Shown here piece by piece: positions 11,433-38,618 of a stretch of DNA of 64,000 nt. The translations under genes were made by a program, and so were the position numbers. The notes beneath the pieces were generated by a model that did no database searches, was not told the DNA's origin, and was given only the letters and a program-made list of their open reading frames with translations. Numbering within the stretch: position 1 is the stretch's first letter; the number at the start of each line of letters is the position of its first letter. This DNA comes from Sphingomonas carotinifaciens. Lineage in GTDB: Bacteria; Pseudomonadota; Alphaproteobacteria; Sphingomonadales; Sphingomonadaceae. Location: positions 1,735,501 through 1,799,500 of the forward strand of contig NZ_WSUT01000005.1 of the NCBI RefSeq assembly GCF_009789535.1, read 5' to 3'.

Positions 11433-14075
<2,643 letters not shown>

Positions 14076-18427: not shown

Positions 18428-20673
18428 GCGAGACGCCTGTGGCGGGCGTGTCGGTGGCGGACGCCGCCGCAGATCCCGCCCCCATGACCACCGCCATGTC
18501 GCGGCCGGTGCACGCGCTGTTCGTGGCGACGATCCTGGCGGGATCGTTCCTGCTGTTCCTGGTCCAGCCGATGGTGGCGCGCATGGCGCTGCCCCGGCTG
18601 GGCGGGGCACCCGCCGTATGGAACTCGGCGATGCTGGTCTATCAGGCGCTGTTGCTGGGCGGCTATGCCTATGCGCACGGGCTGGCGCGGTTCCGGCCGC
18701 GGGTGCAGGCGAGCATCCATCTGGGACTGCTGGCGATCGCGGCCTTGTGGCTGCCGATCGGGCTGGTCGCGGGCGATCCGCCGGCCGATGCCGATCCCGC
18801 CGTGTGGGTGCCGTGGCTGCTCGGCCTGTCGATCGGGCCGCTGTTCTTCGCCGTGTCGGCGCAGGCGCCGCTGATCCAGCGCTGGTTCGCCGCGGCGAGC
18901 GGCGGGCGGGACCCTTATGCGCTTTATGCCGCGTCCAATCTCGGCAGTTTCGGCGGGCTGATCGCCTATCCGCTGCTGGTGGAACCTTCGCTGGCGCTGA
19001 AGGGGCAGAGTCTGGTCTGGACGATCGGCTACGGCGCGCTGGTGCTGCTTGTCGCCGCCTGTGCGCTGCGCCTGCCGCCGCGCGCGGTGGCGGAGGCGCA
19101 ACATGCGGTCACGCCGCCGGCCACGCCGCGCCGTATCGCCTACTGGATCGCGCTGTCGCTGGTCCCCTCGGGCCTGATGCTCGCGACCTCCACCTATATC
19201 ACCACCGACATCGTCGCGATGCCGCTGTTGTGGGTGCTGCCATTGGGGCTCTACCTGCTCAGCTTCACCATCGCCTTCGCCGCGCGGCGCGGCGCGGCCG
19301 ACATGGTCACGCGGATCGCGCCGGTGACGCTGCTGCTGTTCGGCGGCGTCATCATGGCGGGCTATCACCAGCGACCTTATTTCAACGCGGGCATCGCACT
19401 GCTGTTGCTGTTCATGGTGTCGGTGGCGCTGCACACCGCATTGTTCCGCGCGCGACCGGCGCCGGACCGGCTGACCGGATTCTATCTGGCGATGTCGGCG
19501 GGCGGGGCGCTGGGCGGGGTGTTCGCCGGGCTGCTGGCGCCCGTGCTGTTCGACTGGACCTATGAATATCCGCTGCTGATCCTGGCGGCGGGGATGCTGG
19601 TGCCGCAACAGTTCCTGGCGGTGCCGATCCACCGGCTATGGGCACGCCATGGCCGTGCCATGCTGATCGGGCTGGCTTTGATCCTGGGTGTCGGCATCAA
19701 CGTGGCGGTGCTGCGTGCCGACGGGTTGACCGGGGCGGCGAACGGTATCGCCTTTCTGATGCTGGCAACGCTCGGGCTGCTGACGATCGGCGCGCGTGCG
19801 GGCTATGTCCTGCTGCTCGCCAGTGCGCTGGTCGTGTTCGGCGGTTACCGCGCCATCGCGCTCAGCCTGGATGCCGGCGCGCGGACGCGCAGCTATTTCG
19901 GCGTCTACACGGTCAATATCCGCCCCGACCGGCGCGAGCTGGATCACGGCACCACCGTGCACGGGGTGCAGCTTCGCGGATCGCCGGCGCGCGAGCGGCA
20001 GCCGACGACCTATTACGCGCCCGGCTCCGGCGTGGGGCAGGCGATGCTGCTGGCGCCGACCCTGTACGGCGCCGGCGCGCGTATAGGCGTGGTCGGGCTG
20101 GGGACGGGAACGCTCGCCTGTTACGCCCGGACGGGGCAGAGCTGGCGCTTCTACGAGATCGATCCCGCCGTCATCCGTATCGCGCGCGATACCGGGCAGT
20201 TCAGCTATCTGTCACGCTGCCTGCCGCGGCCGACGATCCTGCTGGGCGATGCGCGGATCAGCCTGGCGCAGGCCGCACCCGACAGCCTGGACCTGCTCGC
20301 GCTAGACGCCTTCTCGTCCGACGCCATTCCGATGCATCTGATGACGCGCGAGGCGTTCGAAACCTATGCGCGCGTCCTGTCCGACCGCGGCATGCTGCTC
20401 GTCCACATCTCCAACCGCTTTCTCGACCTCGAACCCGTGGTCGCTGCCGCCGCCCAGAGCGGGGGATGGCATGCCATGCAGTTGAACTACAATCCTTCCA
20501 CGCTGGATACCGATGCATCGGCGTCCTTGTGGATCGCCCTGTCGCGGGACCGGGCGGTGATCGACACGCTGGCCGACCGCAATCCGGGCTGGGCGCCGAT
20601 CGCGAACACCGGGCATGTGCCGGTGTGGACCGATGATTATTCGACCATCCTGCCGCTGATCCGGGGGTTCTAG
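18424..20673 (+). CDS. Fused membrane (MFS-like) / spermidine-synthase-like protein
   Basis: About 749 residues. The N-terminal two thirds is hydrophobic with 12 or more likely membrane helices (ALFVATILAGSFLLFLVQPMVARMALP, GSFGGLIAYPLLVEPSLAL, and so on). The C-terminal 250 residues form a Rossmann aminopropyltransferase-like domain: RIGVVGLGTGTLACYARTG, FYEIDPAVIRIARD, LLGDARISLAQA and LLALDAFSSDAIPMHLMTREAF. Such fusions are widespread but their reaction is not settled; the domain lacks an obvious polyamine-specific signature. GTG 18424 overlaps the hemB stop; ATG 18484 is an alternative. Co-transcription with hemB appears positional, not functional. Confidence 0.85.
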   Translation: MSETPVAGVSVADAAADPAPMTTAMSRPVHALFVATILAGSFLLFLVQPMVARMALPRLGGAPAVWNSAMLVYQALLLGGYAYAHGLARFRPRVQASIHLGLLAIAALWLPIGLVAGDPPADADPAVWVPWLLGLSIGPLFFAVSAQAPLIQRWFAAASGGRDPYALYAASNLGSFGGLIAYPLLVEPSLALKGQSLVWTIGYGALVLLVAACALRLPPRAVAEAQHAVTPPATPRRIAYWIALSLVPSGLMLATSTYITTDIVAMPLLWVLPLGLYLLSFTIAFAARRGAADMVTRIAPVTLLLFGGVIMAGYHQRPYFNAGIALLLLFMVSVALHTALFRARPAPDRLTGFYLAMSAGGALGGVFAGLLAPVLFDWTYEYPLLILAAGMLVPQQFLAVPIHRLWARHGRAMLIGLALILGVGINVAVLRADGLTGAANGIAFLMLATLGLLTIGARAGYVLLLASALVVFGGYRAIALSLDAGARTRSYFGVYTVNIRPDRRELDHGTTVHGVQLRGSPARERQPTTYYAPGSGVGQAMLLAPTLYGAGARIGVVGLGTGTLACYARTGQSWRFYEIDPAVIRIARDTGQFSYLSRCLPRPTILLGDARISLAQAAPDSLDLLALDAFSSDAIPMHLMTREAFETYARVLSDRGMLLVHISNRFLDLEPVVAAAAQSGGWHAMQLNYNPSTLDTDASASLWIALSRDRAVIDTLADRNPGWAPIANTGHVPVWTDDYSTILPLIRGF

Positions 20674-21512: not shown

Positions 21513-22502
21513 TTACCGGCCGTACATCCGGTCCAGCATGCGCGACACGGTGACCAGTTGCGCGGCGGCGGGATCGAAGCGTGCACCGCCGGCGAGGCGC
21601 CGTGCCCAGTCGGCGCCGGCGCGGCCACCCCATTCCTCCGGCGGCTGGCGGAGCGTTTCGCGCTGGGTGCCGCGATAGCGCTCCGCCACGAAGTCGTAGA
21701 AGGAACCATCGACGTTGCGCAGCGCCGCGCCGCCATGCGTGCCGTAGAAGGCGGCGCTGATCTCCGCATCGCGACCGGCATGGAGCCGCCAGGAGCAGGT
21801 GAGGCGCACGACGGTGCCGGTGGGCAGCACGATGCTGGCGGTGGCGAAGTCTTCGACGGCCTCCGCTGCGGGGGGAAGCAGGCGCCCGTCAGCGAACAGT
21901 TGCGCGGTGACCGCGGGATCGCCCTCGGGAAAGCCCAGCGCCCAGAGCGCCAGATCGACCAGATGCACTCCCAGATCCATCACGCAACCGCCACCCGATT
22001 GCGCACGGTCGTAGAACCACGGCTTGTCCGGGCCATAGGCGTTGTGAAAGACGAGATCGACTGCCTGGACATGGCCGAGCGCGCCCTCCGCCAGCAGGGC
22101 GCGGATCGCCTGCATGCCGGCGGTGAAGCGGTAGGAAAAGTCCACCGACAACAGCCGGTCGGCGGCGCGCGCGGCCTCCACCACGCGGGCCGCCTCGGCG
22201 GCATCGCGGCCGAGCGGCTTCTGGCAGAACACCGCCGCGCCGGCATTCAGCGCAGCGATCGACTGTTCGGCATGAAGCGCGCTGGGCGTGGCGATGACGA
22301 CGCCGTCGACGCCGGTCGCCAGCATCGCCTCCAGCCCGTTCACGTGCCTGGCGTCCGGCGCCAGCTTCGCCGCCTCGGCGATCATGTCCGCCGAGGGATC
22401 GGCGATCGCCGCCGCCTCCACCAGCCCCGTCTCCAGCATCGCCTGCATCCGGTGCCGCCCGATCCACCCGACCCCCAGAAAGCCGATACGCGGGCGGTTC
22501 AT
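21513..22502 (-). CDS. Gfo/Idh/MocA-family NAD(P)-dependent oxidoreductase
   Basis: A 329-residue protein. The Rossmann fold has GFLGVGWIGRHR at about residues 7-18, and the family motif appears as CQKPLG, where the usual EKP is QKP with the lysine kept. The C-terminal alpha/beta domain holds DLGVHLVDLALWALG, the histidine/aspartate region typical of sugar oxidoreductases (D-x-x-x-H). It oxidises or reduces sugars, inositols or related carbons. It is the last gene of the leftward arm of the carbohydrate island, overlapping the dehydrogenase gene by ATGA. The substrate is unknown. Confidence 0.9.
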   Translation of the reverse strand: MNRPRIGFLGVGWIGRHRMQAMLETGLVEAAAIADPSADMIAEAAKLAPDARHVNGLEAMLATGVDGVVIATPSALHAEQSIAALNAGAAVFCQKPLGRDAAEAARVVEAARAADRLLSVDFSYRFTAGMQAIRALLAEGALGHVQAVDLVFHNAYGPDKPWFYDRAQSGGGCVMDLGVHLVDLALWALGFPEGDPAVTAQLFADGRLLPPAAEAVEDFATASIVLPTGTVVRLTCSWRLHAGRDAEISAAFYGTHGGAALRNVDGSFYDFVAERYRGTQRETLRQPPEEWGGRAGADWARRLAGGARFDPAAAQLVTVSRMLDRMYGR

Positions 22503-23503
22503 GCGGCGTCTCCGAACGTTATCAATGCTTTGACGAACCCTTGCGGCTTGTCGCGGGTCGCGGCGATCGCCTCGTCCAGTTGCGTGAGCGGATAGCGGTG
22601 GGTGTAGAGCGGAGCGGGATCGATCCGGCCGCTCGCCACCGCGTCCACCGCTTCGCGCAGGCCCCGCATCTGCACCGCGGGATCGCGTTCATGCGCGTTG
22701 ATGACGTCGATGCCTTTCCAGTTCCAGTCCTGCATGTTCACTTGGCGCGGCCCGTCCTGATGATAGCCGGCGACGATCAGCTTGCCGCCGAAGCCGGTGA
22801 TCGCGCTGGCGAGATCGAGCGGCCACTGCTTGCCCACCGCCTCGATCACCCGGTCGCACAGCGTCTCCCCGGTCAGGCGCTTCACCTCCTCGATGATCGC
22901 CCAGTGGTCGTGCATCGGGATCGTCTCCGCTGCGCCATAATGCCGGGCAAGCGCCAGCGACTCGTCGCGGCGCGAGATCGCGATGACGCGGGCGCCGGCG
23001 TCCGTGGCGAGGCGGGTGAGTATCGCGCCGAGGAAGCCGATGCCGACGATGGCGACGGTGTGGCCGGGGCGGATGTCGGAGCGGCGGAAGATGTTCATCG
23101 CGCAGCCGAGGGGCTCGCCGGGGAAGGGGCGGCGGTGGAGGGCGGGGGGCAGGACGACGAGCGCGTCGGCGGCGGCGATGTCGTAGGCGGCGAAGCTGTG
23201 GCAGGACAAGGTGGCGACGCGGTCGCCGGGGTGCACGTCCGACACGCCCGGGCCGACCGCGTCGACGATGCCCCAGCCCTCATGCCCCATGCCGCCCGCC
23301 TCGCCGGGGAAGCTGGACCAGGGCTGTCCGGCCCATGGCTCGACGTTCGAGGCGCAGACGCCGCAGCCCTCCAGCCGGATGCGCACCTCGCCGGGTCCGG
23401 GTTCGGGGCGGGCCACCTCCACCATCTCGAACCGTTCGGGTGCGGCCAGTATCGCGGCCTGCATCGTCTCGCTCACCATCTGTTCCTTGTCGTTCGTTAT
23501 CAT
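22499..23503 (-). CDS. Zinc-binding medium-chain dehydrogenase (threonine/sorbitol dehydrogenase-like)
   Basis: A 334-residue MDR protein. It has the catalytic-zinc ligand region LEGCGVCASNVEPWAG followed by GGMGHEGWGIV, and the cofactor motif VAIVGIGFLGAILTRLATDAGARVIAISRR. The four-cysteine structural-zinc lobe of classical alcohol dehydrogenases is not evident. It oxidises a secondary alcohol, plausibly on a sugar or cyclitol. ATG 23503 overlaps the Nramp stop (ATGA); ATG 23479, with AAGGA 4 nt upstream, is an equally plausible start. It is coupled to the Gfo/Idh gene, and the pair could act as sequential polyol/ketose redox steps. Confidence 0.88.
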   Translation of the reverse strand: MITNDKEQMVSETMQAAILAAPERFEMVEVARPEPGPGEVRIRLEGCGVCASNVEPWAGQPWSSFPGEAGGMGHEGWGIVDAVGPGVSDVHPGDRVATLSCHSFAAYDIAAADALVVLPPALHRRPFPGEPLGCAMNIFRRSDIRPGHTVAIVGIGFLGAILTRLATDAGARVIAISRRDESLALARHYGAAETIPMHDHWAIIEEVKRLTGETLCDRVIEAVGKQWPLDLASAITGFGGKLIVAGYHQDGPRQVNMQDWNWKGIDVINAHERDPAVQMRGLREAVDAVASGRIDPAPLYTHRYPLTQLDEAIAATRDKPQGFVKALITFGDAA

Positions 23504-24750
23504 GAAGCCCAGGCGACGATCAGGGCGATCGCCGCGGCAAAGGTGACCAGCACCGTGATCCAGCCGAGCATGGTGGTCAGCCAGCCGTTGCGCCGTGCGC
23601 CCATCATCCGCCGGTCGCCGGTCATGATCATCATCGCACACAGCAGCGGCGGCACCGAAAAGCCCTGCACGATCCCCGACCACACCAAAGCCCGCATCGG
23701 ATTGAAGCCGAGAAAGTTGAGCGCCACCGCGACGATCGTGACCAGCACGATCACCGCGTAGAACAGCTTCGCCTCGCCGACCTTTGCGTTCAGATGCCCC
23801 TCGCGCCCGACCCCCTGTACCAGATCATAGGCGGCGCCGGTCGACATGACGGGCACCGCGAGGAAACCGACGCCGACCACGCCGGCGGCGAACAGCCATT
23901 TGGCAGCCGGACCCGCCAGCGGCTCCAGCGCGGAGGCGGCCTGTGCGGCGCTTTCGATCTCGGTCTGGCCGGCGGGGTGGAGCGTCGCACCGGTCGACAG
24001 GATGATGAAGTAGAGGATGACGTTGGAGAAGAGCATGCCGACGATGACGTCGCGGCGGGTGCGCTCCAGCTCCCCGCGGCTGGCGCCGAAACGCTGGCGC
24101 CAGCGCGTTCTGCCCTCGGCGATCTGCTCCTCCACCTCCTGATTGGACTGCCAGGTGTAGATATAGGCGGACAGGGAGGTGCCGATGCACGCGACGACCA
24201 TCGCCAGGAACTCGGCATCCATCGTCACCCGTGGCATCACCGTCGCGCGCAGCACCGCCCCCCAGTCGGGCCGGGCCATGATCGCGGCCGCGACATAGGC
24301 GAACAGGGCAAGCGCCAGCCAGCGGAAGATGGTGCGCAGCAGATCGTAGCTGCCGAAGATCTGAAAGGCGACGATGATCGCCGCCGCGCCCACGACGATG
24401 GCGGGAACGGGCACGGGGACGAGCAGCGCCAGCGCCGCGCCGATCCCGCCCAGATTGGCCGCCGCCTCGATGACATTGCCGGTAAAGGCGCAGGCGACGA
24501 GCGGATACAGCACCCAGCGCGGAAACCGGTCGCGCACCGCGGCGAACAGTCCCTTGCCATAAACGCGCCCCAGCTTGGCCGAGACATAGACGACGACATA
24601 CATCATCGGCAGCAGCACGGGGGCGATCCACAGAAAGCCCAGGCCGAACCGTGCGCCGGCGGTGGCATAGGTGCCGATCGCGGAAGGATCGTCGTCCGCC
24701 GCCCCGGTGATGATGCCGGTGCCAAGCACGCGCAGGGGATTGCGCGCCAT
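23500..24750 (-). CDS. Nramp-related divalent metal cation transporter
   Basis: A 416-residue membrane protein with about 11 helices. Helix 1 reads GTGIITGAADDDPSAIGTYATAG, where the DPS segment takes the place of the metal-binding DPG of MntH, a variant seen in Nramp-related transporters of uncertain specificity. Helix 6 has FLAVPVMSTGAAYDL, comparable to the A/P-M-P-H motif of MntH but without its methionine-histidine pair. The canonical Mn2+ ligands are therefore altered, and metal specificity is unsure. A putative 8-codon ORF ends on its start codon (TGATG). It sits in the leftward arm of the sugar island, perhaps supplying metal for an enzyme there. Confidence 0.8.
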   Translation of the reverse strand: MARNPLRVLGTGIITGAADDDPSAIGTYATAGARFGLGFLWIAPVLLPMMYVVVYVSAKLGRVYGKGLFAAVRDRFPRWVLYPLVACAFTGNVIEAAANLGGIGAALALLVPVPVPAIVVGAAAIIVAFQIFGSYDLLRTIFRWLALALFAYVAAAIMARPDWGAVLRATVMPRVTMDAEFLAMVVACIGTSLSAYIYTWQSNQEVEEQIAEGRTRWRQRFGASRGELERTRRDVIVGMLFSNVILYFIILSTGATLHPAGQTEIESAAQAASALEPLAGPAAKWLFAAGVVGVGFLAVPVMSTGAAYDLVQGVGREGHLNAKVGEAKLFYAVIVLVTIVAVALNFLGFNPMRALVWSGIVQGFSVPPLLCAMMIMTGDRRMMGARRNGWLTTMLGWITVLVTFAAAIALIVAWAS

Positions 24751-24902: not shown

Positions 24903-25823
24903 TCATTCCGCCGCCACCGCAGGGACGCTGGTCGATGCCGGTGCGTAGCGGTCGATCATCCATGCGCAGAAATCGGCAAAGGCCTGCGGCTCGCGCGCCG
25001 GGCTGGTATGATGCGGCGCGACGCCCAGATGCTCGGGCGTGAAGCAGAAGGTGACGGTGACGTCGAGATCGGCCAGCGCCTCCATCTGGCGGTCGAACCA
25101 GTCGGTCGCATTGGGCCGGAAGCTGTCCGCCCAGCTCAGCCCGGTGCGCAGCTTCTTCGTGCCCAGCCGCTTCATCCAGGCGACGGCATCGTCCAGCCGG
25201 GGGTCCTCGAAATGGAACCACTGCATCAGCCCCATCTCGCCCGCCACCTTGGCATAATCCTCCAAGGCGGGCTTCGGCGTACCGTCCGGGCGGATGAGCC
25301 CCATGTAGAAATGGCGGTAATAGCTGGACCCTTCCGCCTCGCGGTGGCGGGTGGTGGCGCCCCATTCCATCGGCAGGTCGAACAGCGAATACCAGAAGAC
25401 GCGCGGCACGCGGCCGAGCAGCAGCTCGGCGGTGCGACGCAGGCCGAACACCTGCACCTCCTCCGCCCCGAAGGAGCCGACGCCGACTTCGGTCACCCAG
25501 ACGGGCTTGTGCGTCACCGCCTCGATCTCGGCGACCTTGGCCGGCCATTCGTGGATCGACCACAGGTTCCAGTCGAGCGGGAAGCCGTGCACCGCGACGA
25601 CATCGACCGCATCCAGCACGCCGTGCCCTTCCATGCGGCGCACCCAGGCCGGATCGATGGGCGACATGCCGCCCAGCACGCGGGTGATCGCCGGATTGAC
25701 CGCGTGGATCGCGTTGCCGGCACGCGCGACCGTATCGGCGAAGATCGCCCAGTCGGGATCGAGTTCCGGGTCCCAATGCGACTTGTTGTTCGGCTCGTTC
25801 CAGATCATCGCGGCTTCGATCAT
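24903..25823 (-). CDS. Glycosidase-like (clan GH-A) TIM-barrel protein with circularly permuted motif order
   Basis: A 306-residue protein. The clan GH-A acid/base motif WNEPN is at residues 8-12 (Glu10), and a nucleophile-like WVTEVG is at 109-113 (Glu112). The end of a normal barrel (WYSLFDLPMEW, YMGLIRPDGTPKPALEDY) comes by residue 190. What follows (FHFEDPRLDDAVAWMKRLG, LRTGLSW, WFDRQMEAL, VTVTFCFTPEHLG, FADFCAWMIDRYA) looks like strands 1-3 that should precede WNEPN. So the barrel appears circularly permuted at about the strand 3/strand 4 boundary. ATG 25823 has GGAGG 7 nt upstream and an ATGA overlap with the methyltransferase. Likely a beta-xylosidase-like or transglycosylating enzyme; the activity is unproven. 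Confidence 0.75.
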   Translation of the reverse strand: MIEAAMIWNEPNNKSHWDPELDPDWAIFADTVARAGNAIHAVNPAITRVLGGMSPIDPAWVRRMEGHGVLDAVDVVAVHGFPLDWNLWSIHEWPAKVAEIEAVTHKPVWVTEVGVGSFGAEEVQVFGLRRTAELLLGRVPRVFWYSLFDLPMEWGATTRHREAEGSSYYRHFYMGLIRPDGTPKPALEDYAKVAGEMGLMQWFHFEDPRLDDAVAWMKRLGTKKLRTGLSWADSFRPNATDWFDRQMEALADLDVTVTFCFTPEHLGVAPHHTSPAREPQAFADFCAWMIDRYAPASTSVPAVAAE

Positions 25824-26617
25824 CGTGTTTCCTCCCCCTTGTTCGGATAGACGGCGGCAGGGCCGTATTCGGCATAGGGTATATCGCTGACGCGGCAGAG
25901 ATAGACCTCGTTCTCCGGATGCGCCTCGATCCGGAACCCGGCGGCGCGCAGCATCGCCTCCGAACAGGCGCGGTTCGGTGCCCACCAGTTGGTCCAGTCG
26001 TTGGCGAAGGCACGCTCGATGAAATGCATCTTCGGATAGGCGGCATCGTCGAAAAAGTCGGGCGGCTGGTGCGTGCCCGGCTTGTGAAAGGGATGGTCGG
26101 CCGGCGCGTCATAGGCGTCGCGCGACCCCTGCTGCATCGTCTGGAACAGCAGCATGTCGCCCGCGACATGCTCCCGGATCAGGTCCAGCGCGAGCAGCGG
26201 GTGGCGCAGGTGATAGAGCACGCCCATGAAGATCACGAGGTCGAACCGTTCACCAAGCGCACCGACATCGTAGACGGACAGGTTGCGGAACTCGACACCC
26301 TCGAACCCCAGCGCCCGGCTCGCCAGCCGCGCCTGCGCCAGATAGCGGTCGTCGCTGTCGATCCCCAGCACCCGGTCGGCGCCGCGCCGCTTCATCTCGA
26401 CAGAATAAAAGCCGGCATTGCAGCCGATATCGAGCACCGACTTGCCGGTCAGGTCGGCAGGCAGGGCGTGGGCGAAGCGGTCGAACTTGAAGCCCGGATA
26501 ATTGCCCAGGAAATGATCGGGCGCGGTCCACAGCCCATCGCCCAGATCGATATTGTGGAACCACGGCCCAAGCGCGGCCACCTGTTCACGCAAAGCCTTG
26601 TCGGCGATCGTCGCCAT
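25820..26617 (-). CDS. SAM-dependent methyltransferase resembling CmoB (TIGR04290-like)
   Basis: A 265-residue protein. GPWFHNIDLGDGLWTAPDHFLGNYPGFKFDRF precedes motif I SVLDIGCNAGFYS (about 60-72), then GADRVLGIDSDDRYLAQA and FDLVIFMGVLYHLRHPLLALDLI. This layout, with the W-x-H-x-I-x-L-G-D-G start, is that of CmoB-like methyltransferases. A CmoB tRNA role seems unlikely in a sugar gene island, and I recall a family of this type (TIGR04290) found in glycosyltransferase clusters. The acceptor is unknown, perhaps a glycan. ATG 26617 overlaps the phosphatase stop (TGATG) with GAGAGG 8 nt upstream. Confidence 0.85.
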   Translation of the reverse strand: MATIADKALREQVAALGPWFHNIDLGDGLWTAPDHFLGNYPGFKFDRFAHALPADLTGKSVLDIGCNAGFYSVEMKRRGADRVLGIDSDDRYLAQARLASRALGFEGVEFRNLSVYDVGALGERFDLVIFMGVLYHLRHPLLALDLIREHVAGDMLLFQTMQQGSRDAYDAPADHPFHKPGTHQPPDFFDDAAYPKMHFIERAFANDWTNWWAPNRACSEAMLRAAGFRIEAHPENEVYLCRVSDIPYAEYGPAAVYPNKGEETR

Positions 26618-27213
26618 CAGCACATCCTCTCGTTCAGGCTCAGCAATTTGGCACCCCAGTCGCCGACCACGGCGCGCGAGACGCTGGCCGGGGCAATGTC
26701 GAAGCGCAGGAGATTGTCGAGCGACAGGCCCAGCACATGCGCGACGCCGGCGCGGATCATGTCGCTATGGCTGACCAGCGCGATCACCTGCCCATCGGCG
26801 TCGCGCGCCAGCCGTTCGATATGGCCGACGATGCGGGCCTGCGCCTCCGCCATCGTCTCGCCACCGGGGATGCGCGCCGTGCCGCGCCGGTTGTTCCATG
26901 CATCCCAGGCGGGGCCGTGCAACGTGCCGAATGCAGCCCCCGTCCAATCGCCCATGTCGATCTCGACCAGCGCATCGACCATGGTCGGCGCCGGAAGACC
27001 GCACGCGTCCGCAATCGCCTGCGCCGTCTGGCAGGTGCGGGTCAGGGGGCTGCATTCGATGCGGGTGATCCCCTGACCGACCAGCGCCGCCCCCAAGGCG
27101 GCCGCCTGCGCCAAGCCGGCCTCGCTCAAGGGTACGCCCGGCAGGCGCCCCGAAAGACGTACATCCAGATGAGCATGCGCCGCATGGCGGATGAAAAGGA
27201 TCGTTGCGGTCAA
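26617..27213 (-). CDS. Histidine phosphatase (phosphoglycerate-mutase-like) family protein
   Basis: A 198-residue protein with catalytic His10 in FIRHAAH (RHA instead of the usual RHG), GVPLSEAGLAQAAALG, SPLTRTCQTAQAIA, Glu in VEIDMGDWTG and the second histidine in VIALVSHSDMIRA. It removes phosphate from small phosphoesters such as sugar phosphates, similar to CobC/GpmB-like enzymes. The start is TTG 27213, with GGGGAAG about 7 nt upstream; no ATG fits. It is the first gene of the leftward arm and faces the shared divergent promoter region. Confidence 0.88.
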   Translation of the reverse strand: MTATILFIRHAAHAHLDVRLSGRLPGVPLSEAGLAQAAALGAALVGQGITRIECSPLTRTCQTAQAIADACGLPAPTMVDALVEIDMGDWTGAAFGTLHGPAWDAWNNRRGTARIPGGETMAEAQARIVGHIERLARDADGQVIALVSHSDMIRAGVAHVLGLSLDNLLRFDIAPASVSRAVVGDWGAKLLSLNERMC

Positions 27214-27261
27214 ATGTACGCTTCCCCGCCCCCTGTATCGCCGCACCAGGAATGGCAGCGA

Positions 27262-27423: not shown

Positions 27424-28539
27424 ATGAGCGAGACGGTTCTCATCACCGGCGGCGCCGGCTTTATCGGCCGTTTCGTTGCCGATGAACTGCTCGCCCGCGG
27501 CAACCGGGTCCGCGTTCTCGACAGCCTGATCGAGCAGGTGCACGGGCAGGTGGATCGCCCCCCGCTGCTGAACGACGAGGTCGAGTTGATCCGCGGCGAC
27601 GTGCGCGACGGCGATGCGGTGTCGCGCGCGCTGGACGGGGTGGACAGCGTCGTCCACCTCGCCGCCGAAGTGGGCGTCGGCCAGTCGATGTACGAGGTGG
27701 AACGCTATACCTCGACCAACGATGTTGGCACCGCGGTGCTGTTCGAGAAGCTGATCGACAAGCCGGTGCGCCGCGTCGTCACCGCCTCGTCCATGTCGAT
27801 CTATGGCGAGGGGCTGTACCGCGATGCGGACGGCAATCTGGTTGAGGATGCCGAGCGCCGGGGCCTGCGCGACGGTTTGTCCAACTGGGAGCCGGTCGAT
27901 GGGCAGGGGCGGCCGCTATCGCCGGTGGCGACGCCCGAATGGAAGCGTCCGAACCTTGCCTCGATCTACGCGCTCAACAAATATGTGCAGGAGCGCACCA
28001 CCCACATCATGGCCGCGCCCTATGGCATCGAGGGCGTGTGCCTGCGCCTGTTCAACGTCTATGGTCCAGGGCAAGCGCTGTCGAACCCCTATACCGGCGT
28101 GCTGGCGATCTTCGCCTCGCGCCTGCTCAACGGCCAGCAGCCGATGATCTTCGAGGATGGCGAGCAGCGCCGCGACTTCGTCCATGTGTCGGACGTGGCG
28201 CGCGCCTTTGCCGACTCGCTGACGCTGCCCCAGGCGGTCGGCGGCACGTTCAACATCGGATCGGGGCATGACCGCTCCGTCACCGAAGTGGCGACCGAAC
28301 TGGCCCGCGCGATGGGCAAGAACGACCTGACCCCCGAGGTCGTGGGCAAGGCGCGGATCGGCGACATCCGCCACTGTTTCTGCGACACCGGTCTGGCCGC
28401 CGAGAAGCTGGATTTCCGCGCGACGCAGGATTTCACGCGAGGACTGGCCGAGCTGGCCGAATGGGTCGCCGAGCAGACCGCCGAGGACAAGGTGGCGACG
28501 ATGCGCGCCGAACTGGAGAAGCGGGGGCTGGTGGCGTGA
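27424..28539 (+). CDS. NAD-dependent epimerase/dehydratase (dTDP-L-rhamnose 4-epimerase-like)
   Basis: A 371-residue extended SDR. It has the NAD motif TGGAGFIG near residues 8-15, HLAAEVGVGQSMYEVERY, ASSMSIYGEG, the catalytic YALNK (Tyr-x3-Lys), and FNVYGPGQALSNPYTGVLAIFASRLLNGQQPMIFEDGEQRRDFVHVSDV. The GVGQSMYE, SMSIYGEGLY and NPYTGVLAIF stretches recall dTDP-L-rhamnose 4-epimerases and related deoxysugar epimerases. It probably interconverts nucleotide sugars for the glycosyltransferases downstream. It is the first gene of the rightward arm, overlapping the next gene by GTGA. Confidence 0.88.
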   Translation: MSETVLITGGAGFIGRFVADELLARGNRVRVLDSLIEQVHGQVDRPPLLNDEVELIRGDVRDGDAVSRALDGVDSVVHLAAEVGVGQSMYEVERYTSTNDVGTAVLFEKLIDKPVRRVVTASSMSIYGEGLYRDADGNLVEDAERRGLRDGLSNWEPVDGQGRPLSPVATPEWKRPNLASIYALNKYVQERTTHIMAAPYGIEGVCLRLFNVYGPGQALSNPYTGVLAIFASRLLNGQQPMIFEDGEQRRDFVHVSDVARAFADSLTLPQAVGGTFNIGSGHDRSVTEVATELARAMGKNDLTPEVVGKARIGDIRHCFCDTGLAAEKLDFRATQDFTRGLAELAEWVAEQTAEDKVATMRAELEKRGLVA

Positions 28540-29603
28540 GCGACGACCGGCCCATCCTGATCACGGGCGGCGCTGGCTTTATCGGTTCGAACCTCGCGGA
28601 CCGGCTGGCGGGCGAGGGGCACCGCATCCGCGTCTATGACGCGCTCGCCCGCGCCGGGGTCGAGCAGAATCTGCACTGGTTGCAGAGCCGGCACGGCGAC
28701 CGGATCGAGGCGCGGATCGCCGATATTCGCGAGCAGGACGCGCTCGCCGATGCCGCTGCCGACGCCAAGGCGGTGTTCCATCTGGCCGCGCAGGTGGCGG
28801 TGACCACCAGCCTGGTCGACCCGGTGGACGACTTCACGATCAACATCGCGGCCACGCTGTCGTTGCTGGAGATGCTGCGCAAGCGGGGCGATGCGACGCC
28901 GCTGATCTTTGCGTCGACCAACAAGGTTTACGGCGATCTGGCCGACCTGGATTTCGCCGCGAGCGACAATGGCTATGCGCCGGTCGACGCCGCGATCCGC
29001 GACCATGGAATCGGCGAGGACCGGCCGCTCGACTTCCACACGCCCTATGGCTGCTCCAAGGGCGCGGCCGACCAATATGTGCTGGATTACGCGCGCAGCT
29101 ACGGCGTGCCGACCGCGGTGCTGCGGATGAGCTGCATCTACGGCCACCGTCAGATGGGGACAGAGGATCAGGGATGGGTCGCCCATTTCCTGATCCGCGC
29201 GCTCGAAGGGCGGCCGATCACGCTTTATGGCGACGGGCAGCAGGTGCGCGACATCCTCGACGTGTCGAATGCGGTCGATGCCTATGTGCGGGCCTGGGCC
29301 AATATCGACCGGGTGTCGGGGCAGGTGTTTAACCTTGGCGGCGGCGCGGACAATGCGGTCAGCCTGCGTACCCTGCTCGCCTATATCGGCACGCTGATCG
29401 GGCAGGACGTGGCGATCGACTATGCGGACTGGCGCGCGGGCGACCAGCGTTATTTCGTCGCCGACACGCGCAAGGCGGAAGCGGCCCTGGGGCTGGGCGC
29501 GAAGGTGCCGTGGCGCGAGGGCGTGGCGAATCTGGCGCGCTGGCTGGCGAGCGAGCGCCGGTTGAACCTGCCGGTCGGCGACATGACGGCGCTGGCGTCG
29601 TGA
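28536..29603 (+). CDS. NAD-dependent epimerase/dehydratase (CDP-paratose 2-epimerase-like)
   Basis: A 355-residue extended SDR. It opens with ILITGGAGFIGSNLADRL, then HLAAQVAVTTSLVDPVDDFTINIAATLSLLEMLR, FASTNKVYGDL, the catalytic YGCSKG (Tyr-x3-Lys) and RMSCIYGHRQMGTEDQGWVAHFLI. The AQVAVTTS, STNKVYG and SCIYG-RQ-G-EDQGWVAHF order matches CDP-tyvelose/paratose 2-epimerases. The actual sugar is unknown. The start is GTG 28536, overlapping the previous stop. Together with the preceding epimerase it suggests two alternative or sequential activated deoxysugars. Confidence 0.88.
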   Translation: MSDDRPILITGGAGFIGSNLADRLAGEGHRIRVYDALARAGVEQNLHWLQSRHGDRIEARIADIREQDALADAAADAKAVFHLAAQVAVTTSLVDPVDDFTINIAATLSLLEMLRKRGDATPLIFASTNKVYGDLADLDFAASDNGYAPVDAAIRDHGIGEDRPLDFHTPYGCSKGAADQYVLDYARSYGVPTAVLRMSCIYGHRQMGTEDQGWVAHFLIRALEGRPITLYGDGQQVRDILDVSNAVDAYVRAWANIDRVSGQVFNLGGGADNAVSLRTLLAYIGTLIGQDVAIDYADWRAGDQRYFVADTRKAEAALGLGAKVPWREGVANLARWLASERRLNLPVGDMTALAS

Positions 29604-29605
29604 CC

Positions 29606-30706
29606 ATGCGCATCCTGATGACCGCCGACGCGGTCGGTGGCGTCTGGCAATATGCGACCGATCTGGCCGCCTCGCTGGTGCCGCACGGGATCGAGACGGT
29701 GCTGGCGACGCTGGGCCCGCCGGCGACGGCGGCGCAGCGGGGCGAGGCGGCGGCCGTGCCGGGACTGACGCTGGTCGAAACCGGCCTGCCGCTCGACTGG
29801 CTGTGCGACGAACCCGGCCCGGTGCAGGCGGCGGGCGAGGCGATCCGCGCGCTGGCCGAGCGCGAGGGGGTGGGCCTGGTCCACCTCAACCAGCCCTGCC
29901 TTGCGGCCGAGACCAGCTATCCCGTGCCGGTCGTCGCGGTCATCCATGGCTGCGTCGCGACCTGGTGGGATGCCGCGCACGGCACCCAGCCCGACCGCGC
30001 CTTTGCCTGGCAGGCGCGGCTGGTGCGCGCCGGACTGATGCGCGCCGATGCGGTGGTCGCGCCCAGCGCCAGCTATGCCGCGATCGTCGCCCGCTGCCAC
30101 CGGCTGCCGACGCCGCCGCTGACCGTGCATAACGGCCGCGCCGCGCTGCCCGTGCCTGCGGGGCTCGCCCAGGCCGATCATGTGCTGACCGCCGGGCGGC
30201 TATGGGATCAGGTGAAGCGTGTCCGCCTGCTCGACGAGGCGGCGGGGCGCATCGCCTGGCCGATGCTCGCCGCCGGCCCGCTGGTCGCCCCGCATGGCGA
30301 GACGATCGAGCTCCGGCACGCCCGGTCGCTCGGTACGCTTTCCACCCCCGATCTGGCCGCGCAACTGGCACGCCGGCCGATCTTCGTCTCGTCGGCCAGC
30401 TTCGAACCGTTCGGCCTGTCGGTGCTGGAGGCGGCGGCGGCGGGCTGCGCGCTGGTGCTGTCGGGGATCGACACGTTTCGCGAGTTGTGGACGGGCGCTG
30501 CGCTGTTCGTCGACCCGGACGACGCCGATGGCTTTGCCGCCGCGATCGGCCGCGTCATCGCCGACCAGGCGCTGCGCCAGCATATGGGGGAGGCCGCCCG
30601 CATCCGGGCCGCCCGCTACACCCCCGATGCGATGGCCGGTGCCATGGCCTCCATCTATGCCGGCCTGCTCGGCGCGGCCAAGCCCTCCACCAAGGTCGCC
30701 GCATGA
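29606..30706 (+). CDS. Glycosyltransferase family 4 (GT-B) protein
   Basis: A 366-residue GT-B enzyme. The N-terminal domain starts ILMTADAVGGVWQYATDLAASL, where the GG-V pattern is the acceptor loop. The C-terminal domain has the donor-binding region ending FVSSASFEPFGLSVLEAAAAGCALVLSGIDTFRELW, the E-x7-E motif (EPFGLSVLE). It transfers a sugar from a nucleotide donor to a glycan or small acceptor, in the cytosol. GTG 29600 (GTGA overlap with the previous stop) or ATG 29606 may be the start; I used the ATG. Its stop overlaps the first CgeB gene by ATGA. Confidence 0.88.
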   Translation: MRILMTADAVGGVWQYATDLAASLVPHGIETVLATLGPPATAAQRGEAAAVPGLTLVETGLPLDWLCDEPGPVQAAGEAIRALAEREGVGLVHLNQPCLAAETSYPVPVVAVIHGCVATWWDAAHGTQPDRAFAWQARLVRAGLMRADAVVAPSASYAAIVARCHRLPTPPLTVHNGRAALPVPAGLAQADHVLTAGRLWDQVKRVRLLDEAAGRIAWPMLAAGPLVAPHGETIELRHARSLGTLSTPDLAAQLARRPIFVSSASFEPFGLSVLEAAAAGCALVLSGIDTFRELWTGAALFVDPDDADGFAAAIGRVIADQALRQHMGEAARIRAARYTPDAMAGAMASIYAGLLGAAKPSTKVAA

Positions 30707-31815
30707 AGATCGTCTATTTCACCCACAGCCTGCAATCCTGCTGGAACCACGGCAACGCCCATTTCCTGCGCGGCGTGCTGAGCGACCTGATCGCGCGCGG
30801 GCATGACGTGCGCGTCTATGAGCCGATCAACCCCTGGAGCCTGACCAACCTGCTGGCCGATGCGGGCGAGGCGGGGCTGGAGCCCTATCGCCGCCATTAT
30901 CCGGAACTGTCCTCCCAGAGCATCGCGCCCGAAATCGCGCTGGAGCCGCTGGTCGACGGGGCGGATCTGGTCATCGTCCATGAATGGAACGAGCCGGCAC
31001 TGGTCGCCGCGATCGGCGATGTGCGCAGGCGGGGCGGTTCGTTCCGCCTGCTGTTCCACGACACCCATCACCGCGCGGTCAGTGCCCCGGACGAGATGAC
31101 CGCCTTCGACCTGTCGGGCTATGACGGCGTGCTGGCGTTCGGCGAAACGCTGTCCGAGGTTTATCGCGGCTGGGGCTGGGAGGGCCGGGTATGGACCTGG
31201 CATGAGGCGGCCGACACCCGCCGCTTCCACCCGCCGGCCGAGGAAGGCGCACGGTCCGGACTCGTCTGGATCGGCAATTGGGGCGATGGCGAGCGGACGC
31301 GCGAACTGGAAAGCTTCCTGTTCCGGCCCGCCGCCGAAGCCGGGCTGCCGCTCGATATCTACGGTGTCCGCTACCCTGACGAAGCCAGGGCAATGCTGGC
31401 CGCGCATGGTGCCCGCTATCATGGCTGGGTGCCCAATGCCGGCGCGCCCGACATCTTCGCCCGCGCGCTCGCCACGGTGCACGTGCCGCGCCGTTATTAT
31501 GCGACGATCCTGCCCGGCATTCCCACCATCCGCGTGTTCGAGGCGCTGGCCTGCGGCATCCCGCTCGTCTCCGCACCGTGGGAGGATGCCGAAAGCCTGT
31601 TCCGGCCCGGCACCGACTATCTGGTCGCGGCCGATGGCGCCGCGATGACCCGGCAGCTGCGGGCACTGGCCGAAGACGCCGATCTGCGCGCCGCGCTGGT
31701 CGCCGCGGGGCTGGAGACGATCCACGCCCGCCACACCTGCGCGCACCGCGTCGACGAACTGCTTGCCATCGCGCGCCAGTTGCACGCGCCCGCGCCCCAG
31801 AGGACCGCCGCATGA
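30703..31815 (+). CDS. CgeB-type glycosyltransferase, first of three tandem paralogues
   Basis: A 370-residue GT-B-like protein. It starts MKIVYFTHSLQSCWNHGNAHFLRGVLSDLIARGHDVRVYEP and ends with the CgeB C-terminal signature IPTIRVFEALACGIPLVSAPWEDAESLFRPGTDYLVAADG (R-x-FE-A-x2-C-x3-L, then W-x2-x2-x-F-x-P). In Bacillus, CgeB acts in spore-surface glycosylation; most homologues are undescribed. The N-terminal GNAHFLRG resembles the WGNGHATTFRALL of the third copy. ATG overlaps the previous stop. It probably acts on the same product as its two neighbours, each adding a different sugar or position. Confidence 0.85.
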   Translation: MKIVYFTHSLQSCWNHGNAHFLRGVLSDLIARGHDVRVYEPINPWSLTNLLADAGEAGLEPYRRHYPELSSQSIAPEIALEPLVDGADLVIVHEWNEPALVAAIGDVRRRGGSFRLLFHDTHHRAVSAPDEMTAFDLSGYDGVLAFGETLSEVYRGWGWEGRVWTWHEAADTRRFHPPAEEGARSGLVWIGNWGDGERTRELESFLFRPAAEAGLPLDIYGVRYPDEARAMLAAHGARYHGWVPNAGAPDIFARALATVHVPRRYYATILPGIPTIRVFEALACGIPLVSAPWEDAESLFRPGTDYLVAADGAAMTRQLRALAEDADLRAALVAAGLETIHARHTCAHRVDELLAIARQLHAPAPQRTAA

Positions 31816-32900
31816 AGATCGCCTTTTACGGCTCCAGCCTCGTTTCCTCCTACTGGAACGGTGCCGCCACCTATTATCGCGGCATATTGAGCGCGCTCGC
31901 CCGCCACGGCTGGGACATCACCTTTTACGAGCCCGACGCGTTCGACCGGCAGAAGCATCGCGATATCGATCCGCCCTCCTACGCCCGATCGGTCGTCTAT
32001 CCCGCCACCCCGGAGGCGCTGCGCGACGTGCTGGCGGAGGCGCGGGGCGCCGACATCGTGGTGAAGGCGAACGGCGTCGGCGTGTTCGACCGCGAACTGC
32101 TGGAAGGCATCATCGCCAATGCCGGGCCCCACGCGCTCAAGATCTTCTGGGATGTCGATGCCGCCGCGACGCTGGACGAGATGCGCGGCGACGCGTCGCA
32201 CCCCGTGCTCGCCGCGCTCCCCGATCTGGACATGGTGCTGACCTATGGCGGCGGGCCGCCGGTGGTGGACGCCTATACCGGCTTCGGCGCGAAACGGTGC
32301 ATCCCCGTCTACAATGCGCTGGACCCGGAGACGCATCATCCGGTCGCGCCCGATCCGCGCTTTGCCTGCGATCTCGCCTTTCTGGGCAATCGCCTGCCCG
32401 ACCGCGAGGCGCGGGTGGAGGAATTCTTCCTGAAGCCCGCCGCCCGCCTCGCCGATCGCCGGTTCCTGATCGGCGGCAATGGCTGGGAAACGAAGCAGAT
32501 GCCCGGCAATGTCCGCCACCGCGGCCATGTCTACACCGCCGAGCACAACGCCTTCAACTGCACGCCGCGCGCGGTGCTGAACGTCGCACGTGACTCGATG
32601 GCGCATATCGGCTTCTCGCCCGCCACCCGCGTGTTCGAGGCGGCGGGCGCGGCGGCCTGCCTGATCACCGATGCGTGGGAAGGGATCGAACAGTTCCTGA
32701 CCCCCGACAGCGAAGTGCTGGTCGCGCGCGACGGGCAGGACGTGGCGGATCATCTGGCGGCGCTGACCACCGAGCGGGCGCAGGCGATCGGGCAGGCGGC
32801 GAAAGCGCGGGTGCTGGCCGAACATACCTATGAACTGCGCGCGGTGCAGGTGGACGCGCTGTTCCGCGACCATCTCGCCCGGCAGGCGGTGCCGGCATGA
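31812..32900 (+). CDS. CgeB-type glycosyltransferase, second of three tandem paralogues
   Basis: A 362-residue protein. It starts MKIAFYGSSLVSSYWNGAATYYRGILSALARHGWDITFYEPDAFDRQ, and continues with FWDVDAAATLDEM, VLTYGGGPPVVDAYTGFGAKRCIPVYNALDPETHHP, DLAFLGNRLPDRE and the CgeB end SPATRVFEAAGAAACLITDAWEGIEQFLTPDSEVLVARDG. The shared layout with copies 1 and 3 shows descent by duplication, though sequence is well diverged. It is coupled on both sides by ATGA overlaps. No signal peptide is present, so it acts in the cytosol. Confidence 0.87.
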   Translation: MKIAFYGSSLVSSYWNGAATYYRGILSALARHGWDITFYEPDAFDRQKHRDIDPPSYARSVVYPATPEALRDVLAEARGADIVVKANGVGVFDRELLEGIIANAGPHALKIFWDVDAAATLDEMRGDASHPVLAALPDLDMVLTYGGGPPVVDAYTGFGAKRCIPVYNALDPETHHPVAPDPRFACDLAFLGNRLPDREARVEEFFLKPAARLADRRFLIGGNGWETKQMPGNVRHRGHVYTAEHNAFNCTPRAVLNVARDSMAHIGFSPATRVFEAAGAAACLITDAWEGIEQFLTPDSEVLVARDGQDVADHLAALTTERAQAIGQAAKARVLAEHTYELRAVQVDALFRDHLARQAVPA

Positions 32901-33976
32901 GGCTCGTCGTCCTTGGCCTGTCGCTGTCCTCGTCCTGGGGCAATGGCCACGCCACCACCTTTCGCGCGCTGCTGAAGGCATTTGCCGCGCGCGGGCACGA
33001 TATCCTGTTCCTAGAACGCGACGTCCCCTGGTATGCCAGCCAGCGCGACTGCACCGATCCCGATTATTGCGAACTGGTCTTTTACGCCGACCTGGACGAA
33101 CTGCGCAGCCGCTGGGGCAAGGCGATCGCTGAGGCCGATGCGGTGATCGTCGGCTCCTATGTGCCGCAAGGCGTGGAGGTCGGGCGGCTGGTGCAGGAAC
33201 TGGCGCGCGGCGTCACCGCCTTTTACGACATCGACACGCCCGTGACGCTCGCCAAGCTGGAACGCGGCGACTTCGAATATCTCTCGCCGGCGGTGATCCC
33301 CGGCTACGACCTGTATCTGTCGTTCACCGGTGGGCCGACGCTGGACCATCTGGAGCGGCAATATGGCTCGCCGGCCGCGCGCGCGCTGTTCTGCTCGGTG
33401 GACGAGGATGCCTATCGGCCGCTGGAGGTGGCTTCGCGTTGGGACCTCTCCTATCTCGGCACCTACAGCCCCGATCGCCAACCGACGCTGGAGCGGCTGT
33501 TGCTGGAGCCGGCGCGGCGCATGCCCGATCGCCGCTTCGTCGTTGCCGGGCCGCAATATCCCGCCGACATCGACTGGCCGGCCAATGTCGAGCGGATCGA
33601 GCATTGCCCGCCTGCCGACCATGCCGCTTTCTACTCCGCCTCGCGCTTCACGCTGAACGTGACGCGGGGCGACATGATCGCGCGCGGCTGGTCGCCCTCG
33701 GTGCGCCTGTTCGAGGCCGCGGCCTGCGCCACGCCGATCATCTCCGACATCTGGGAGGGGCTGGACCAGCTCTTCGTGCCGCAATCGGAAATCATCCTGG
33801 CGGACGGCACCGAGGCGGTGGTGGCGGCGCTGTCCGGCGAGGATGCCGGGGCGATGGGCCGTGCCGCACAGGCCCGCGTGCTGGCCCAGCATACCGCGCG
33901 CCACCGCGCGGCCGAACTCGAAGCATATCTGGAACATGCCGCAACAGCGGCCGCACGCGAGCCGCAGGTCGCGTGA
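32897..33976 (+). CDS. CgeB-type glycosyltransferase, third of three tandem paralogues
   Basis: A 359-residue protein. It begins MRLVVLGLSLSSSWGNGHATTFRALLKAFAARGHDILFLERD, followed by FYDIDTPVTLAKLERG, LYLSFTGGPTLDHLERQYGSPAARALFCSVDEDAYRP, DLSYLGTYSPDRQPTLERLLLEPARRMPDRRFVVAGPQYP and the end SPSVRLFEAAACATPIISDIWEGLDQLFVPQSEIILADG. It is closest in motif content to copy 2 (SP-[AS]-x-R-[VL]-FEAA, W-EG-[IL]-[ED]-QF). It ends 25 nt before the UDP-xylose-synthase-like gene. The acceptor and donor are unknown. Confidence 0.87.
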   Translation: MRLVVLGLSLSSSWGNGHATTFRALLKAFAARGHDILFLERDVPWYASQRDCTDPDYCELVFYADLDELRSRWGKAIAEADAVIVGSYVPQGVEVGRLVQELARGVTAFYDIDTPVTLAKLERGDFEYLSPAVIPGYDLYLSFTGGPTLDHLERQYGSPAARALFCSVDEDAYRPLEVASRWDLSYLGTYSPDRQPTLERLLLEPARRMPDRRFVVAGPQYPADIDWPANVERIEHCPPADHAAFYSASRFTLNVTRGDMIARGWSPSVRLFEAAACATPIISDIWEGLDQLFVPQSEIILADGTEAVVAALSGEDAGAMGRAAQARVLAQHTARHRAAELEAYLEHAATAAAREPQVA

Positions 33977-34001
33977 CGATGACCATGGAAAGGAAGAGGC
34001 A

Positions 34002-34994
34002 ATGGCAGCATCGGAGGAGGTGATCCTGATCGCGGGCGGCGCGGGGTTCATCGGCTCGCACCTGACCGCGCGATTGTTGGACGAGGGGCGGCAGGTGATC
34101 GTCCTCGACAATCTGCAGACCGCGCGCCCCTCCAACCTGCGTCTGCTGGAAGGGCGGCCGGGCTTCACCTTCGTGCAAGGCGACATCGTCGATCCGCTGC
34201 CCGAGGCGGTGTTGCGCGAAGCGGGCCGCATCGTGCGCATCTACAATCTGGCCTGTGCCGCCTCCCCGCCGCAATATCAGGTCGATCCCGAACACACGAT
34301 GCTGACCAACGTGATGGGCACCAACCATCTGTTGCGCCTCGCCGAGCAGACGGGCGCGCGCTTCCTGCTCACCTCCACGTCCGAAGTGTACGGCGACCCG
34401 GAGGTGCATCCGCAGGTAGAAGGTTATCGCGGCTGGGTGAACTGCACCGGGCCCCGCGCCTGCTATGACGAGGGCAAGCGCGCCGCTGAGGCGCTGACCT
34501 TCGACTATGCGCGCATGAAGCGTGCCCAGGTCCGCGTCGCGCGCATCTTCAACACCTATGGCCCGCAGATGCATCCCGATGATGGCCGCGTCGTCTCCAA
34601 CCTGATCTGCCAGGCGCTGTCGAACCGCGACATCACCATTCACGGCGACGGCACGCAGACGCGCAGCTTCTGCTATGTCTCCGACATGGTCGACGCGCTG
34701 ATCCGCCTGATGGAAAGCGAGATCGACGGGCTGGAGCCGGTCAATCTGGGCAACCCCAACGAGCTGACCGTGTCGGACTTGGCGGAGAAGGTGGTGGCGA
34801 TGACGGGCAGCACCAACCGGCTGGTCTATACCCCGCTCCCCCAGGACGATCCCCGCCGCCGCCGCCCGAACATCGACCGGGCAAAGGCGCTGCTCGGCTG
34901 GGAACCGCGCGTGCCGCTGGCCGACGGTCTTGCCAAGACCTGCGCGTGGTTCGCCGAGGAACTGGGGCGCGTGCCGCAACGGGTGGCGGCGTAG
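34002..34994 (+). CDS. UDP-glucuronate decarboxylase-like protein (UDP-xylose synthase type)
   Basis: A 330-residue extended SDR. It has ILIAGGAGFIGSHLTARLLDEGRQVIVLDNLQTA, IYNLACAASPPQYQVDPEHTMLTNVMGTNHLLRLAEQTGARFLLTSTSEVYGDPEVHPQ, the catalytic YDEGKRAAEAL (Tyr-x3-Lys) and RIFNTYGPQMHPDDGRVVSNLICQAL. ASPPxYQ, TSEVYGDPxxHPQ, YDEGKR and IFNTYGPxM are signatures of UDP-xylose synthase and its dTDP-glucose dehydratase relatives. If so it makes UDP-xylose, which fits the beta-xylosidase-like protein in the opposite arm. ATG 34002 follows AGGAAGAGGC. It ends the rightward arm. Confidence 0.88.
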   Translation: MAASEEVILIAGGAGFIGSHLTARLLDEGRQVIVLDNLQTARPSNLRLLEGRPGFTFVQGDIVDPLPEAVLREAGRIVRIYNLACAASPPQYQVDPEHTMLTNVMGTNHLLRLAEQTGARFLLTSTSEVYGDPEVHPQVEGYRGWVNCTGPRACYDEGKRAAEALTFDYARMKRAQVRVARIFNTYGPQMHPDDGRVVSNLICQALSNRDITIHGDGTQTRSFCYVSDMVDALIRLMESEIDGLEPVNLGNPNELTVSDLAEKVVAMTGSTNRLVYTPLPQDDPRRRRPNIDRAKALLGWEPRVPLADGLAKTCAWFAEELGRVPQRVAA

Positions 34995-38572: not shown

Positions 38573-38618
38573 CTCCACGCCAGATAATGTCTCTGGCGCA
38601 CGGTGCGACCAACTTATC

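Follow-up and report, generated by a model that had tools for sequence, protein, structure and literature searches.

A circularly permuted, glycosidase-like barrel in a glycosyltransferase gene cluster of Sphingomonas carotinifaciens

Background

Glycoside hydrolases (GH) of clan GH-A carry an Asn-Glu acid/base motif at the end of strand beta4 and a Glu nucleophile at the end of strand beta7. PslG of Pseudomonas aeruginosa, a GH39 enzyme (PDB 4zn2, 5bx9, 9g17), is a 416-residue chain in the canonical order; it is reported to use Glu165 as acid/base and Glu276 as nucleophile in a retaining mechanism (PMC11912335). Natural circular permutation of (beta/alpha)8 barrels is described for the GH70 glucansucrases and GtfB of clan GH-H, with GtfC and GtfD as non-permuted kin (PMC8398850, PMC9732880). 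Here we report a 306-residue protein encoded by an open reading frame on the minus strand at 24903-25823 of a 64,000-nucleotide stretch of Sphingomonas carotinifaciens (contig NZ_WSUT01000005.1, positions 1,735,501 to 1,799,500; this whole stretch is called the window below). We conclude with great confidence that its chain is circularly permuted relative to canonical relatives.

Evidence for a rotated chain order

The original prediction, made from the letters of the window alone, had read the chain order of this protein as rotated, and profile scores bear this out. Against a profile built from six canonical barrels (328 positions), the protein in its native order scored 96.5 bits over profile positions 122-299. 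When its start was shifted in steps of 6 through 49 start points, the best-domain score peaked at 151.0 bits with the start rotated to residue 187, and the match then covered positions 15-299 of 328. The rejoined order outscored the native one in all 27 further members (means of 150.1 versus 102.1 bits). Canonical barrels rotated at strand 4 had the opposite outcome, all six dropping from 588-649 to 380-423 bits (a loss of about 207-228); these controls also built the profile, and their absolute scores are inflated. Compared with PslG in native order, the single sequence gave a best match at E=0.052 over residues 3-195, and a 55-sequence profile reached E=1.1e-5 over residues 3-153 only. Moving residues 199-293 ahead of 1-198 lengthened the match of the single sequence to 74-289 of 293 residues (E=1.1e-6, 31.4 bits), a weak likeness. 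The rotation scan with its controls and the canonical relatives indicate that both halves are homologous to the canonical protein, with their order swapped and the ends joined, as in a natural permutation. The strands run 4-8 and then 1-3, not from beta1 to beta8 as in clan GH-A, and for this reason we call the protein a permuted GH-A-type barrel instead of a standard member of the clan. Its features are as follows:

24903..25823, minus strand: putative permuted glycosidase gene, 306 residues (open reading frame, motif positions, start survey, profile rotation, AlphaFold model)
25230..25823, minus strand: residues 1-198, strands beta4-beta8 and helix alpha8 (profile scan, AlphaFold)
24945..25229, minus strand: residues 199-293, strands beta1-beta3 and helices alpha1-alpha3, which come first in canonical relatives
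25788..25802, minus strand: WNEPN, residues 8-12, with Glu10 as predicted acid/base, directly following beta4 at the extreme N-terminus
25482..25499, minus strand: WVTEVG, residues 109-114, with predicted nucleophile Glu112, at the end of beta7
24906..24944, minus strand: residues 294-306, variable tail, modelled with low confidence from 298

The first residue of strand beta1 is 198. The barrel C-terminus YMGLIRPDGTPKPALEDY, expected to end near 190 of a 306-residue chain, occupies residues 173-190, and the pieces resembling strands 1-3 lie at residues 203-294, within a C-terminal block of about 199-294. WNEPN stands where it had been placed, while the nucleophile-like WVTEVG, given earlier as 109-113, extends to 114.

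A truncated barrel of strands 4-8 joined to an unrelated C-terminal domain, with a coincidental likeness to strands 1-3 or with the true start further upstream, is very improbable. Such a protein would agree with Pfam, in which the native order matched only PF11790 (residues 3-124, 24.6 bits, cut-off 21) and the C-terminal piece alone matched nothing. However, this piece by itself scored 47.5 bits on canonical-profile positions 20-116, and the predicted structure places it as barrel strands, in line with the earlier reading of the last 115 or so residues as strands 1-3. The start, which had been called well supported, is accompanied by a GGAGG and by an ATGA overlap of 4 bases, in which the stop codon of the upstream methyltransferase gene (25820-25822), read in another frame, meets the start codon of the permuted gene (25821-25823). 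An ATG, GTG or TTG codon stands at aligned residue 1 in 100 of the 103 permuted-type loci; in the other three the alignment runs from residue 2, and a start codon was not found there. Included in the 103 are 80 loci, all permuted, kept from 536 stretches of the genome collection that encode a relative. Their matches begin at query residue 1 (77 loci) or residue 2 (three loci) and reach at least residue 291 in every case.

A native-order match to one family over the full length, named beforehand as evidence against rotation, was not found in Pfam or NCBIfam. No Pfam or NCBIfam family spans the permuted protein, and its labels vary among 'beta-xylosidase', 'glycosyl hydrolase' and 'hypothetical protein', which exposes a blind spot of annotation. 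Pfam and NCBIfam returned no GH39 match, and GH13 and GH70 were not among the Pfam, NCBIfam or PDB matches listed, no direct comparison with these families having been made. Five canonical barrels scanned in Pfam gave no match near the cut-off and two chance-level rows.

Predicted structure and catalytic residues

The AlphaFold monomer shows one barrel, with the (beta/alpha)8 architecture of clan GH-A. Residues 1-198 hold strands 2-7, 47-50, 75-79, 108-113 and 142-145 together with a helix at 185-193, and the C-terminal part, as modelled, supplies strands to the barrel (198-200, 224-230 and 254-260) rather than forming a domain of its own, which the original prediction had named as a result that would speak against it. 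Asn9-Glu10 follows directly on strand 2-7 and Glu112 lies inside strand 108-113, at the catalytic positions of the clan. The folding alignment was drawn from 58 of the 103 loci, thinned by similarity and with four plasmid rows omitted, and a second one was made without the plasmid fusions L111, L112 and L114. A four-residue join and a cut between alpha3 and beta4 were read from DSSP strings. Foldseek gave the permuted model one match at E <0.001, to an FMN-binding beta-glucuronidase and spanning 209 columns; with VIA, PslG was absent among the 50 entries listed, which is uninformative either way.

The sequence evidence would equally fit a domain-swapped dimer, in which each chain lends its strands 1-3 to the barrel of the other and the barrels are spatially canonical and made of two chains, and the AlphaFold model is of a monomer only. 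We consider this arrangement improbable, as confidence in the monomer model is good except at the active-site loops, and the passage from helix 185-193 to strand 198-200 needs a four-residue loop, ordinary between neighbouring barrel units.

The Glu residues of both catalytic motifs are invariant across an alignment of 55 sequences, as are the neighbouring motifs, and a pattern check found both motifs in 27 of 27 genes. Divergence by codon position over 27 genes was 0.215/0.189/0.473. This pattern, together with the invariant Glu residues, indicates a protein under selection and not a chance reading frame. Based on the analogy with clan GH-A and with the two catalytic Glu residues of PslG, Glu10 would act as acid/base and Glu112 as nucleophile of a two-step retaining reaction, and the protein is probably an active retaining glycosidase. 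It might instead have ceased to be a hydrolase and serve as a sugar binder or scaffold in a biosynthetic complex. The cluster is of a biosynthesis type, and a canonical fused relative (L138, see below) lost both catalytic motifs and kept its frame open, so a non-catalytic role for such a barrel is possible; against the strict conservation of Glu10, Glu112 and their surroundings, we nevertheless hold this alternative to be unlikely.

Gene cluster in the window

The permuted gene is surrounded by genes of sugar-nucleotide, glycosyl and methyl transfer type:

25820..26623, minus strand: TIGR04290 family methyltransferase, 4-base overlap with the permuted gene (367 bits, cut-off 300)
26617..27246, minus strand: histidine phosphatase (family search)
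27424..28539, plus strand: SDR1, NAD-dependent epimerase/dehydratase (family search)
28536..29603, plus strand: SDR2, epimerase/dehydratase, here without a barrel (cluster comparison)
29603..30706, plus strand: GT4-type glycosyltransferase (family search)
30697..33976, plus strand: three glycosyltransferase-like genes, PF13524 (family search)
33990..34994, plus strand: SDR related to UDP-glucuronate decarboxylase (the equivalent gene is so annotated in other loci)
22499..23479, minus strand: zinc-binding dehydrogenase, putative start codon (family search)
21513..22502, minus strand: Gfo/Idh/MocA oxidoreductase (family search)

SDR2 of the window is 53-59% identical to epimerases that carry an N-terminal barrel of canonical order in five other aligned clusters. 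The two dehydrogenases are nearest to inositol and inosose dehydrogenases, far below the cut-offs (106.7 versus 355 and 94.1 versus 450 bits). It is likely that the permuted enzyme belongs to the pathway of this cluster, and our guess is that the product is a partly inositol-linked glycoside. A histidine phosphatase was present in 87 of 101 permuted loci and an inositol-3-phosphate synthase in 55 of 101, versus none of 11 canonical-only loci for either gene; these counts come from stretches of at least 9 kb, many with short flanks, and absences are not firm. The idea that the permuted type requires the synthase was rejected, given its frequency and the lack of a PF07994 match in the window genome.

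The TIGR04295 B12-binding radical SAM gene occurs in some clusters of both forms (L113 5706-6998; L116 14515-15801; also L119, L123 and L126-L129) and was not found in the window. A literature search on TIGR04290 or TIGR04295 found nothing, and one on the S. meliloti locus yielded a single unrelated mention. A gene for an Nramp-type metal transporter (23500-24750, minus strand) separates the permuted gene from the two dehydrogenase genes, and a divalent metal transporter is also found near the canonical cluster of L111. Just past the cluster, on the opposite strand (34999-38578, minus), are sulfate-activation genes, cysQ-, cysNC- and cysD-like by reading of their translations only.

Distribution of the permuted and canonical forms

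Relatives were collected by searching genomes, plasmids and contigs. Among 61 genomes near the window, 14 carry a relative and one more has a weak match; a 97% identical relative occurs in an uncultured Sphingomonas. A six-frame search of 398 Pseudomonadota genomes returned 12 genomes with the permuted form, two with canonical fusions and six with weak matches. In the two fusions (G373 and G324), a match to query residues ~190-296 stands ahead of one to 7-184 in one frame, within proteins of ~700 residues that have the barrel first and a NAD-dependent epimerase second. Plasmids with matches come from Sphingobium, Paracoccus, Roseomonas, Azospirillum and rhizobia; 146 plasmid records have any match, canonical ones included, and 98 have one place covering 80% of the query. 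The permuted copies in named records are alphaproteobacterial among the matches listed (60 of the 146 plasmid records).

In rhizobia, an F420-hydrogenase-like gene is convergent to and overlaps the permuted gene (L162 18876-21333, and several Sinorhizobium plasmids); in Ensifer a polysaccharide pyruvyl transferase follows the F420-hydrogenase-like gene, and there the methyltransferase sits at the opposite end of the cluster. On a Xanthomonas sacchari plasmid (L111, 11687-12519), match coordinates put the first part of the canonical barrel in a different frame from the rest, and the annotated start at 11869 excludes this part.

TIGR04290 scored above its cut-off in 16 of 385 class-level genomes. 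A search of the same genomes with the canonical barrel found the permuted arrangement in eight and a canonical barrel in eight, of which six are complete, one is degenerate (G765) and one is cut by a contig end (G634). G765 and G634 hold both forms, and two more of the 385 gave weak matches only. All 14 barrel-bearing genomes are among the 16 with TIGR04290; the other two (G513 and G574) had no match in the canonical-barrel search and no barrel in the fetched stretches, which reach the contig end. Of 22 surveyed loci, 11 were permuted, nine had the canonical order fused to SDR2 (three partly in view) and two had neither; most loci were chosen by barrel or by TIGR04290, and these counts are not a random sample.

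A fused barrel was seen in none of 70 loci with the permuted gene and SDR2 in view. The later-found L161, a plasmid of Rhizobium sp. CB3090, has both, with the fused barrel at 2375-3308 and the permuted one at 18001-18885, about 15 kb apart; its fused barrel retains WNEPN and WITETG. The notion that the two forms never share a genome is thus wrong, as G765, G634 and L161 each have both. In G765 the frame of the fused barrel is open, both catalytic motifs are gone, and the permuted gene lies elsewhere in the genome. In L138 (1165-3090, plus strand; the same gene is in L145) LELWNEPNN has become WIEIAAAPG and WITEAGYST has become WITGTGFST in an open frame, and the genome also has a permuted copy.

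Fused and unfused SDR2

In a tree of 34 SDR2 rows from the loci analysed (midpoint root for drawing only), fused and unfused rows were intermixed. Well-supported branches force at least three changes, and a single clade of fused rows was rejected (approximately unbiased test, p-AU 5e-67). SDR2 lacks a barrel in S. meliloti (L110), Ensifer adhaerens (L162), S. sojae (L164) and Rhizobium sp. AB2/73 (L165), which with the fused L161 make up a group (98/93), itself nested in a group of nine rows (100/99) whose other four rows are fused too. All four loci without a fused barrel have a permuted gene within the fetched stretch. An earlier SDR2 tree, weakly rooted with two outgroup rows, placed L110 likewise (100/98). 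By eye, and with no statistic, the SDR2 N-termini of L110, L162 and L164 still look like the linker found in fused proteins (HLAAPALSGKAAPILVVGG in L110, THLAAPSISRAVRPVVITGG in L112), and that of L165 does not. L122 may be another independent loss of the barrel (89/73 beside the fused L111, in a group of 100/98 with the fused L138). The SDR2 pattern and the decayed barrel of G765 are consistent with the permuted gene having displaced the fused barrel.

Proposed role and points on the other side

Collectively, a single permuted clan GH-A-type (beta/alpha)8-barrel glycosidase is very probably the explanation of these data. Its strands follow the order 4-5-6-7-8-1-2-3, with strand 4 at the beginning of the chain and helix 3 as the last barrel element; a loop of about four residues bridges helix 8 and strand 1, where the ends of an unpermuted chain would lie. 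Since the very first residues form barrel strand 4, there is no space for a signal peptide, which suggests that the enzyme acts in the cytoplasm. There it may trim or transfer a beta-linked sugar on a glycoside that is the product of the neighbouring genes for sugar-nucleotide enzymes, glycosyltransferases and the methyltransferase. Elsewhere, the same job would be done by the canonical-order barrel fused to SDR2; whether the two forms catalyse the same reaction we put at even chances.

A further reading, which we consider somewhat less likely than not, is that the permuted family repeatedly displaced its fused counterpart within this one cluster type. Once the separate rotated gene had come in, the fused barrel would have decayed (L138) or been excised with a linker scar (L110, L162, L164), and the permuted enzyme would be a cytoplasmic transglycosidase in an undescribed pathway for a partly inositol-linked glycoside. 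If displacement did take place, rotation would be a working solution interchangeable with domain fusion.

Several observations weigh against the main reading. The active-site loops of the model (11-15, 82-86 and 155-167) have a predicted local distance difference test score (pLDDT) <50, and the folding alignment was limited to relatives at 68% identity or above. Rejoining the chain brought no gain in Pfam, where a full-length match had been expected from the original prediction. The pathways of permuted and canonical loci may differ, since both the histidine phosphatase and the inositol-3-phosphate synthase are absent from the canonical-only loci, and the step catalysed by one form may not be that of the other. 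G634 has a fused copy of canonical order, apparently intact at its visible end, as well as a permuted copy. In the barrel tree, which also speaks against a simple account of displacement, the canonical rows form one clade (100/100) on a long branch of 2.71 changes per column, and a single branch sets the permuted rows apart in only 54% of the 200 bootstrap trees.

This tree included four very distant outgroup rows, and its seam pattern skipped 10 of the 27 further permuted sequences (a wider pattern later took all 27). Because of the bootstrap value, the long branches and the distant outgroups, it leaves a single origin and the direction of change unsettled, as it does the candidate grouping of the permuted rows as one clade versus the canonical rows. 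The common cut point is a better argument than this tree and suggests one origin of the permuted form. In-place excision of the permuted barrel from a fused one was not supported: the permuted rows lie outside the canonical clade, and as the canonical rows are one clade on a long branch, the permuted form would not have arisen from the fused form within these lineages.

Comparison with known systems

A literature search found no circularly permuted clan GH-A or GH39 glycosidase, most subscription journals being outside its reach. PF11790 (Glyco_hydro_cc) matches part of the protein above its cut-off, and the GH39 beta-xylosidases 4ekj and 6uqj match its WNEPN region weakly; both differ in that they leave the strand 1-3 part unmatched in either order and do not span the protein. 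PslG differs in its canonical order and longer chain, and the window protein, rotated and lacking room for a signal peptide, resembles it only weakly in sequence.

The closest counterpart is the canonical barrel fused to SDR2 (for example L101, L114 and L119), which is like the permuted protein in its catalytic motifs and cluster type, with ~30% identity in both halves. It differs in its order of 1-2-3-4-5-6-7-8, in forming one polypeptide with SDR2 and in its own clade in the barrel tree. Permuted and canonical forms thus occur in the same cluster type, once 15 kb apart, with apparent intermediates (both forms together, a decayed fused barrel, a linker-like scar). This makes it feasible to examine directly, in harmless laboratory bacteria, the ways in which permutation, fission and fusion take each other's place.

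The GH70 enzymes and GtfB are likewise naturally permuted glycosidase barrels with non-permuted relatives, although they belong to another clan, act in alpha-glucan chemistry and are multidomain.
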